From the NCBI GenBank assembly GCA_016744575.1, contig JADGEC010000027.1, positions 1 through 32,575 of the forward strand: a stretch of 32,575 bases of DNA, read 5' to 3'. Positions within the stretch are counted from its first letter, which is position 1, and each line of letters begins with the position of its first letter. The translations under genes were made by a program, and so were the position numbers. This DNA comes from Sulfurimonadaceae bacterium. Lineage in GTDB: Bacteria > Campylobacterota > Campylobacteria > Campylobacterales > Sulfurimonadaceae. Positions 12,962 through 32,575 of this stretch are shown here, piece after piece. Under the pieces are notes generated by a model. It saw nothing but the letters and a program-made list of their open reading frames with translations, was not told the DNA's origin and searched no databases.

Positions 12962-13957
12962 ATGAGAGCAAGTGAGATCACGGCGTCATTGGAAGCACTG
13001 ATAGAAGAGAAGATACCGACCTTTCTCTGGGGTCCTCCGGGGATCGGAAAATCCTCTATTGTCAAGCAGATAGCCGATAAGAACGAGATAGGCTTTATAG
13101 ACCTACGACTTTCATTGATGGACCCGACTGATCTTAAAGGGATCCCTTTTTATGATAAACATGACCATCAGGCCGTCTGGGCTTCACCCTCATTTCTGCC
13201 TACAGAGGGGAGCGGCATCCTCTTTTTAGATGAATTAAATGCTGCGCCGCCTTCGGTTCAGGCTTCAGCTTATCAGCTTATCCTCGATCGCCGAGTTGGT
13301 GAGTACATGCTGCCTGATGGCTGGGCTATTGTCGCGGCAGGAAACAGAGAGAGTGACAGAGGCGTGGTCTACCGTATGTCTTCTCCTTTGGCAAACCGGT
13401 TCGTGCATCTGGAGATGGAGGTCCATGTCGACGACTGGCGTGACTGGGCTTACCTCAATGGTGTCGACGAACGCATCATCGCGTACATCGGTTATAAGAA
13501 CGAGGACCTGTTCACGTTTGATCCGACAGCCAATGAGAAGAGTTTTGCTACGCCGAGAAGCTGGGAGTTTGTACACGGGGTCTTACGTAGCAGTATGAAT
13601 GAAAGATTGCTTTTAGATACCATCGGGGGAGCTGTAGGCAAAGAGCTCGCCGTAAGGTTTCTAAGTTTTGCCAGAGTGATGCACCGTTTACCAGACCTTG
13701 AGAAGATCTTGGAAGAGGGCAGTGGAGAGTACCCTAAAGAGGTCGATGTGCTCTATGCGCTTAGTACCGGTCTGGTCTCAAAACTGCTTGCCGATCAGAC
13801 AGAGGAGAGAGTAGACAACCTCTTACGTTATACCTTGGAACTTGAAAGCGAGTTTGCGGTCATGATCGTCCAAGACCTTCAGCGCGCAGGCATAAGCATG
13901 GAACACTCCGAGACTTTTGGTGACTGGGTCAAAAAGTTTGCCTACCTTTTGGCATAG
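12962..13957 (+). CDS. MoxR-type AAA+ ATPase
   Basis: A 331-aa AAA+ protein of the MoxR/AAA_5 type. Walker A is GPPGIGKSS (24-32), Walker B is ILFLDELNAA (D90, E91), sensor 1 lies in AAGN (N128), and the arginine finger is probably R146 in SPLANRF. An ATRPRS-like sensor 2 region lies near ATPRSWEFVHG. MoxR ATPases partner with VWA proteins to remodel or activate client enzymes. Here the VWA gene follows at 14386, but 428 bases of repeats separate them. The ATG has a GAGGGAG ribosome binding site. Forms an operon with the LRV/HEAT-like gene upstream. Confidence 0.87.
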   Translation: MRASEITASLEALIEEKIPTFLWGPPGIGKSSIVKQIADKNEIGFIDLRLSLMDPTDLKGIPFYDKHDHQAVWASPSFLPTEGSGILFLDELNAAPPSVQASAYQLILDRRVGEYMLPDGWAIVAAGNRESDRGVVYRMSSPLANRFVHLEMEVHVDDWRDWAYLNGVDERIIAYIGYKNEDLFTFDPTANEKSFATPRSWEFVHGVLRSSMNERLLLDTIGGAVGKELAVRFLSFARVMHRLPDLEKILEEGSGEYPKEVDVLYALSTGLVSKLLADQTEERVDNLLRYTLELESEFAVMIVQDLQRAGISMEHSETFGDWVKKFAYLLA

Positions 13958-13983
13958 CTAAGAAATAGGAAGGTCAGGAATGC

Positions 13984-14035
13984 GGGGACATTGGTTTACT
14001 TTTTCATTATTATGAAAAAGTAAAGCTGTGTCCCC
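13984..14035. repeat. REP-like palindrome, copy 1
   Basis: A 52-base near-perfect hairpin: GGGGACA (13984-13990) pairs with TGTCCCC (14029-14035), and inside it TTTACTTTTTCAT (13995-14007) pairs perfectly with ATGAAAAAGTAAA (14012-14024) around a TATT loop. A mismatched bulge separates the two stems. This is the architecture of REP/MITE-type elements mobilised by Y1 (RAYT) transposases, but no transposase gene is in the window. Confidence 0.75.
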
Positions 14036-14153
14036 CTAATGTCTATACGACCATTATTGTAAAGAGCAGTTTGCATTATGTATAATTGTAAATCGTCCAA
14101 AAGAGTAACTGATGCATATACAATCATTGATGAAAAAAGCAGGTTAGTATTAT

Positions 14154-14294
14154 CATGAGTAAATATTCGTCCAAAAAGTATAAAAGATCTATTGCGTCAT
14201 TTCATGTGGACATTGGTTTACTTTTTCATCATTATGAAAAAGTAAAGCTGTGTCCCCCTAATGTCTATACGACTATTATTGTAAAGAACAGTTG
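14154..14294 (+). CDS. 46-codon ORF starting in duplicated start-unit 2 and crossing REP copy 2
   Basis: ATG 14154 begins MSKYSSKKYKRSI, similar to the start of the downstream VWA protein (MKNDLSKKQNIPAS), and reads through the second palindrome (LLFHHYEKVKLCPPN) to TGA at 14292-14294. It most likely is a duplicated gene start that lost its gene body, so translation may have no function. It could act as a decoy or upstream ORF. No strong ribosome binding site is present. Confidence 0.25.
14206..14257. repeat. REP-like palindrome, copy 2
   Basis: Almost identical to the copy at 13984: TTTACTTTTTCAT (14217-14229), CATT loop, ATGAAAAAGTAAA (14234-14246), closed by GTGGACA/TGTCCCC, so the first outer base pair is lost. 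The loop change TATT to CATT and the outer G to T show divergence since duplication. About 70 bases downstream of each copy are also conserved. Confidence 0.75.
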
Positions 14295-14385
14295 ATATTA
14301 TGATGAATATCAATTCGTCCAAAAAGTCAATATCCTCAGTCTGCCTTCAAAATATATATAATTGTAAAAAGCACCCAGTATTATC

Positions 14386-15594
14386 ATGAAAAACGATTTA
14401 TCCAAAAAACAAAACATCCCAGCCTCCCTCCAACAAAAGATCTCCCAGGCCAAAGCCAGACTGCTTGTAGAACAGCCCTATTTTGGCACACTGGCAAGTC
14501 GTTTAGAACTTAGACAGAGCGATGAACTGGGTACTTTTATCAGTGATGGGACAGAACTGGCGTACAACGATGACTATCTTGATACGCTGAACATCGATGA
14601 ACTCGGTTTTGTCCTTAGCAACGGTGCGATGCATGCGGTACTGGCACATGATACCCGCCAAAAAGGGCGGATGAGCTGGTTATGGCAGTTAGCTACAGAC
14701 CATGCCATCAATGCGATGCTCGTAGATAATGGGCTCTCGGTGCCACCGATGATCAACTATGAACAGCGCTTTGACGGTCTCTATGCAGAAGAGATCTATG
14801 CGACCTTAAAAGATGAGATCAAAAACGAAGAGTTCAACGACGATGAAGAGAACGAGACGGGGTATAATGAAGACAATAAGAAACAACAGGAGCAGATGAG
14901 TCAACCTGATCAGGACGAGGCAAAAGAGAAGAACCGTCCGAAGATGGAGGTGGAGAACGAGTACCGTGCGCAAGAGAGCGAGACTTTAGAAGAGCAGTTC
15001 AAGCAGATGCAAGAGCAGAGCATGCAGAAGTTCCTTGATGAACTTCCCCATGGCATAGAGCGTTTTGTCGAGATCACCAAAAGTGCGGTCATCGACTGGC
15101 GTTCGGAACTCTCTCATGCTCTGGATAAACATTACCGTAGTGACTACCGTACTCTGCCCCCAAGTAAAAGACTGCTCTATATGGGGACCTATCTTCCCTC
15201 TTTGCACTCTGAGAGGCTGCAGCTTGTCATAGCCATAGATAGTTCCGGCTCAGTCGATGAAGCATTGCTGGGAGATTTTATCACTGAGATCGAGTCGCTT
15301 ATGCTTCATTTTCATGACTATGAGATCGAGCTATTGGTCTGTGATGCCAAGATACACTCTTCTCAGACATTCCTCAGTGGTGATAAGCTGGAATATGAAC
15401 TCAAAGGAGGGGGCGCTACTGATTTCAGGCCGGTCTTTGAGAGAGTCGAAGAGGAACTTCCTTTTACCCAGTTACTTCTCTATTTTACTGATATGCAGGG
15501 GACTTTTCCTAAGATGGAGCCACTATATGAGGTCCTTTGGATAAGCCCATCATCTACAGAAGCCCCCTTTGGACGAGTGATCTCTATGCAGTAG
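14386..15594 (+). CDS. DUF2201/VWA-domain protein (CoxE-like MoxR partner)
   Basis: A 402-aa protein. The N-terminal domain (about 20-125) resembles the putative metallopeptidase domain of DUF2201 proteins (WLWQLATDHAINAML), but the HExxH position reads SNGAMHAVLAHD, so the leading His-Glu is missing and metal catalysis is doubtful. A charged Gln/Glu-rich linker (about 140-215) follows. The C-terminal VWA domain has an intact MIDAS: DSSGS (D285, S287, S289), the Thr in GGGATDF and an Asp in YFTDMQ. VWA proteins bind clients or metals for their MoxR ATPase. The start lacks a Shine-Dalgarno sequence and lies in the last of four repeated start units. Confidence 0.8.
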   Translation: MKNDLSKKQNIPASLQQKISQAKARLLVEQPYFGTLASRLELRQSDELGTFISDGTELAYNDDYLDTLNIDELGFVLSNGAMHAVLAHDTRQKGRMSWLWQLATDHAINAMLVDNGLSVPPMINYEQRFDGLYAEEIYATLKDEIKNEEFNDDEENETGYNEDNKKQQEQMSQPDQDEAKEKNRPKMEVENEYRAQESETLEEQFKQMQEQSMQKFLDELPHGIERFVEITKSAVIDWRSELSHALDKHYRSDYRTLPPSKRLLYMGTYLPSLHSERLQLVIAIDSSGSVDEALLGDFITEIESLMLHFHDYEIELLVCDAKIHSSQTFLSGDKLEYELKGGGATDFRPVFERVEEELPFTQLLLYFTDMQGTFPKMEPLYEVLWISPSSTEAPFGRVISMQ

Positions 15595-32164: not shown

Positions 32165-32575
32165 TTACGCCACATCTTGTATTGATTCCAGATACAGGTT
32201 CATCGGCTTTTGATAGCCGATGGATGAGTGGAATCGCTTGTAGTTGTACTTATGCATAAAGTCTTTTATCCCCTGTCTTAGCTCCTTGATAGTCTGATAG
32301 TCACTGATATAGATGTCGCTATGTTTGAGTGTCCTGAAGAACCTTTCGATCATGATATTATCGATCGATCGGCCTTTACCGTTCATCGATATCTGGATAT
32401 CGTGGTCTTTGAGTATTTGCGTGTGCTCATGACTGGTGTACTGGCTACCCTGATCACTATTGAATATCTTTGGTTTGGGATATTTCGCTAGTGCTTCTTT
32501 CAACACATCAGTGGCAAGTGTGGCATCCATCGAGTTTGATAGCTTATAGGAGAGTATCGCTCGTGTATGCCAGTC
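32165..32575 (-). mobile_element. IS3-family transposase OrfB, C-terminal part (runs off window)
   Basis: The frame is open from the window edge (DWHTRAILSYKLSNSMDATL) to the stop at 32165, 136 codons in view. It holds the second half of the rve/DDE integrase core: FNSDQGSQYTS (second catalytic Asp), SMNGKGRSIDNIMIERFFRT (catalytic Glu in IERFF), and the C-terminal YNYKRFHSSIGYQKPMNLYL typical of IS3 OrfB. The first Asp and OrfA should lie to the right. No frameshift is seen in this part, so the element could be intact. ATG 32530 is internal, not a start. Confidence 0.88.

Follow-up and report, generated by a model that had tools for sequence, protein, structure and literature searches.

A hairpin-and-tail repeat array between MoxR and VWA genes of a Sulfurimonadaceae bacterium and its apparent part in the VWA gene start

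A MoxR-type AAA ATPase gene and its VWA-like partner usually overlap. In the DNA analysed here, termed the window (the whole 32,575-nt stretch of contig JADGEC010000027.1 from a Sulfurimonadaceae bacterium), the MoxR gene ends at 13957 and the VWA gene starts at 14386, leaving a gap of 428 nt. The locus thus raises the question of what fills this gap, and of how the filling relates to the start of the downstream gene, from which an earlier note on this DNA had derived it. The features of the locus are the following.

12962..13957, + strand: MoxR-type AAA ATPase gene (Pfam AAA_5, AAA_3), upstream of the array
13984..14035, + strand: hairpin P1 (fold -30.2 kcal/mol, z -8.7; family covariation across 29 sense copies)
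14037..14102, + strand: tail unit U1 (model R1 match, 61 bits)
14078..14158, + strand: upstream ORF 1, 26 aa, in U1-U2 (mechanical ORF; not kept in the sister species)
14110..14178, + strand: tail unit U2 (model R1 match, 58.7 bits)
14155..14295, + strand: upstream ORF 2, 46 aa, through P2 (open in both species)
~14193-14200, + strand: 5' box TGCGTCAT of hairpin P2
14206..14257, + strand: hairpin P2 (fold -23.5 kcal/mol, z -7.2; model R2 match)
14259..14326, + strand: tail unit U3 (model R1 match, 69.9 bits)
14300..14389, + strand: upstream ORF 3 (its TGA overlaps the VWA ATG, as ATGA, in both species)
14361..14408, + strand: degenerate tail unit U4 (matched by a model that leaves it out, E 8.6e-4; 0/2000 shuffles)
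14386..15594, + strand: DUF2201_N/DUF2201 (VWA-like) gene (Pfam DUF2201_N and DUF2201; predicted start)

Composition of the gap

The gap was found to be a mosaic array in the order P1-U1-U2-P2-U3-U4, lying in an AT-rich region (GC 0.30), in which P is a near-perfect hairpin of 52 nt and U is a tail unit of ~68 nt. Two palindromes 222 nt apart, each followed by shared bases, had been reported in the earlier note; they were located at 13984-14035 and 14206-14257, with starts at 13984 and 14206, and together with their shared bases they form 117-nt blocks (13986-14102 and 14208-14324) that are 89% identical, in agreement with the tandem growth of a palindrome-plus-unit block that the note had proposed. 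Its four degenerate units correspond to U1-U4, whose boundaries were set by an alignment of 60 copies and of which U4 is the degenerate one. The ATG followed in frame by S-K-K/R was present in all four units, with the ATGs at 14078, 14155, 14300/14303 and 14386; the positions given before for the second and third, 14154 and 14302, were one or two bases off.

The hairpins fold far better than shuffled sequence, with z-scores of -8.7 for P1 and -7.2 for P2. Across 29 sense copies of P, 92% of pair cells are kept with compensatory exchanges, in an alignment made to the structure of the model, which biases it towards that structure. The P consensus reads GGGGWCA...TGWCCCC, often with an ACGTC box before it, and the stems measure about 19-24 bp. 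The 60 U copies have a variable interior and are bounded by the shared boxes GTCYATACR and TTCGTCYAAA. The kinship of U4 with the other units, for which comparison with shuffled DNA had been suggested as a check, held: the U4 region against the other units outscores 2000/2000 dinucleotide shuffles in both species, and the coding part of U4 alone gives a weaker result, its score being reached by 19/2000 shuffles. Furthermore, a genome-wide search with a model from which U4 had been left out still recovered it (E 8.6e-4 per genome).

A search for a folded RNA in U gave no consensus structure in sets of 15 or 60 copies, and U as a structured RNA was rejected, with single-copy z-scores of -0.75 and -1.31. 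That the 5' ACGTC box might pair with the GTCYATACG box was considered by eye and likewise set aside, since the box variants do not appear to covary, and no intrinsic terminator was found in the array. Rfam 15 returned 0 matches above the gathering score for the window and seven loci.

A genus-specific repeat family and its nearest known kinds

P and U make up a dispersed, genus-specific family of intergenic repeats, the element being a hairpin P followed by one or two U units of ~68 nt. In model searches, on which the genome-wide counts rest, the U model (R1) has 28 matches in this genome and 32 in the sister genome, and the P model (R2) has 27 in each, part of these being the same palindromes read in antisense. 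In 29 other genomes, R1 gave no convincing match to U, only weak isolated ones, while R2 also picked up weaker relatives of P, lacking the U tail, in a few other genera. In GTDB genomes, a pattern scan returned two contigs of the sister genome and two single matches in unrelated organisms, which is about what chance would give. The same tail is preceded by several types of hairpin, and the copy number of units varies at orthologous loci with the same flanking genes. In both sister genomes, family hairpins (L107 1787-1907 and L127 2640-2760) have a similar extra stretch of ~30 nt ahead of the 3' arm. An empty site, which would bear on a comparison with MITEs (terminal inverted repeats with target-site duplication), was sought in the sister for two elements; the flanks were not found for one and the sister's contigs end near the site for the other. 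No empty site was found in a close relative.

The siting of the family bears out the REP-like character ascribed to the palindromes in the earlier note: they are dispersed intergenic hairpins, and among the 22 loci of this genome with both neighbours called (by simple longest-frame calls) 11 lie between convergent and 11 between co-directional genes, with 0/22 between divergent genes. The 11 co-directional loci show a weak bias, genes running along the element in 8 and against it in 3. A siting after gene ends, convergent or co-directional rather than divergent, has been reported for REPs (PMC3733652).

The closest known kinds are REP/BIME and the GGGGWSAS-type repeats of RAYT-like transposases. 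The TIR repeats of RAYT-like (TIRYT) transposases (Di Nocera et al. 2013, PMC3733652) are likewise dispersed, moderately abundant and in part self-complementary; the P arms begin GGGGWCA, and RAYT-like genes flanked by GGGGACAGGG...CCCTGTCCCC occur in the family (L156). They differ in that the window copies read GGGGACAT, without the last S of GGGGWSAS, and in that P is accompanied by a tail unit of 68 nt, which invariably stands on the one side. GGGGWCA occurs in nearly all P copies, and the full GGGGWSAS in the GGGGTCAG subfamily only. No transposase gene with exactly matching ends was found in this genome; its one clear Y1_Tnp gene has flanks of the GGGG(T/G)CAGGTGATTC type, not the P hairpin. 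This RAYT-like gene (L037, 1093-1863 and ~2100-2547) has partial repeats of its own 5' end alongside.

Like REP/BIME, the array is an intergenic mosaic of palindromes and other motifs, the family lying after gene ends, with no copy placed between divergent genes. In GTAG REP/BIME, however, the tag GTAG stands at the end of a palindrome of 20-40 bp and clusters alternate in orientation, whereas GTAG is absent at the hairpin ends in the 29 sense copies, P1 and P2 are direct repeats, the stems are of about 19-24 bp, and the copies are fewer. Nor does P conform to the CGTC REP (CGTC next to a stem of 8-9 bp with an A-T start and a loop of 4-5 nt), as the ACGTC box sits several bases before a longer stem that starts with GGGG. 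The hairpin-plus-tail family was found to have no counterpart in Rfam or in the literature searched.

The VWA gene start and the history of the junction

U4 carries the predicted VWA start codon and the first eight or so codons, and the N-terminus MKNDLSKKQNIPAS that precedes the conserved KISQAKA region coincides with it. The VWA proteins of relatives begin a few residues before KISQAKA, without MKNDLSKKQNIPAS; in the next relative, of one genus (L009), the N-terminus is extended too, by a different sequence. No other in-frame ATG, GTG or TTG was found from the preceding stop to 90 nt past 14386.

The earlier note had taken the units for copies of the gene's start, a reading that the family does not support: dozens of U copies, most of them lacking ATG-SKK, adjoin unrelated genes. 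The gene start therefore appears to have been made from the repeat rather than the repeat from the gene start. The ATG-SKK pattern, found in 7/9 array units and in 1/51 units elsewhere, marks the subfamily of this locus; shared descent accounts for it.

A 4-nt overlap of the VWA start with the MoxR stop (often ATGA) is seen at eight loci of other genera; in the remaining loci the gap is at most 16 nt, with one exception at 156. The spacer is missing from these genera, so that the array does separate MoxR from VWA, as had been noticed before. The sister species has the whole array in the same order, P-U-U-P-U-U', and also a second, cut-off version on contig C367; since both sisters have it, the array predates their split. 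P1 is 96% identical to P2 and 86% identical to the sister's P1, which points to homogenisation within the array, judged from these identities.

Altogether, it is probable that a genus-specific REP-like repeat entered the MoxR-VWA junction and expanded there, and that its decayed last unit came to form the 5' end of the VWA gene. The element would have entered in the ancestor of the two species, P perhaps having been mobilised by a RAYT-like transposase, and the array would have grown in place through tandem duplication together with homogenisation. Its last unit would then have decayed and been taken over as the VWA 5' end, giving the start codon and the first eight or so codons, so that the ancestral start, overlapping or adjoining the MoxR stop, would have been replaced by that of U4. 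As a predicted effect, VWA translation would most likely have lost its direct coupling to the MoxR stop; a literature search on MoxR-VWA translational coupling found nothing. The hairpins, if they have any role, would most likely act within the shared transcript, as RNA structures of the REP type.

Rickettsia palindromic elements and intragenic REPs are precedents for repeats entering proteins, where a dispersed repeat likewise adds amino acids to the host protein (PMC10969869, PMC3733652). These differ in being in-frame internal inserts, whereas here, where two genes of an operon meet, a tail unit gives the start codon and the N-terminus. The locus offers a case that can be traced, of a dispersed intergenic repeat that appears to have parted two usually overlapping genes and to have become the 5' end of one; two sister genomes and many outgroups make the states before and after comparable. 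It has been cautioned that repeats found in N-terminal coding regions may in many cases stem from misannotated starts (PMC3733652). Gene starts adjoining such arrays need direct checking.

A possible translation relay, a possible promoter and the source of the units

The array may have gained a function of its own, replacing the lost MoxR-VWA coupling and compatible with an origin of the start from the repeat. A relay was considered in which the repeat-derived ORFs (14078-14158, 14155-14295, 14300-14389) pass ribosomes to 14386 by termination-reinitiation, and it was judged unlikely. The ATGA overlap of ORF 3 with VWA and the spacing of ORF 2 and ORF 3 are kept in both species, a MoxR-VWA overlap is the ancestral state, and a clear Shine-Dalgarno sequence is absent, by eye, before 14386. 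However, such an ORF 3 arises in 2-3% of shuffles for each species, the two species are not independent, ORF 1 is not kept in the sister, and the substitutions in ORF 2 are without coding bias. In fact, ORF 2 has 10 amino-acid-changing and 3 silent codon differences between the species and, in contrast to the VWA gene, no excess at third positions; these substitutions give no sign of peptide selection. Similarly doubtful is the fuller version, that a mobile-type repeat broke the overlapping junction and then rebuilt it with an ORF chain, an ATGA overlap and a new start, VWA being translated by reinitiation.

It is somewhat less likely still that the array holds its own promoter for VWA. Seven promoter-like sites were counted, compared with 2.1 +/- 1.3 in shuffles, the best being TTGTAA-18-TATAAT at 14057-14086; yet the sites are no more than matches to a consensus, they occur on both strands, and some of them overlap the palindromes, in a region that is AT-rich (GC 0.30).

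The least probable is the original proposal that the VWA 5' end was the source, duplicated upstream with the palindrome to leave decoy starts or short ORFs tuning VWA relative to MoxR: ATG-S-K-K/R is near-confined to the locus (7/9 versus 1/51), and the array units therefore descend from a local ancestor, which may already have had the start codon, but units with the same boxes adjoin many unrelated genes, the spacer and the N-terminal sequence are both missing in other genera, and U4, the most degenerate unit, is not an evident source.

Two further observations concern the gene and its surroundings. A second DUF2201/VWA paralogue, 41% identical to that of the window, lies in the same genome (L033, 1501-2634, contig C74), and an integrase-core (rve) ORF on the minus strand at 32165-32530 of the window, near the contig end, is probably part of an insertion sequence.
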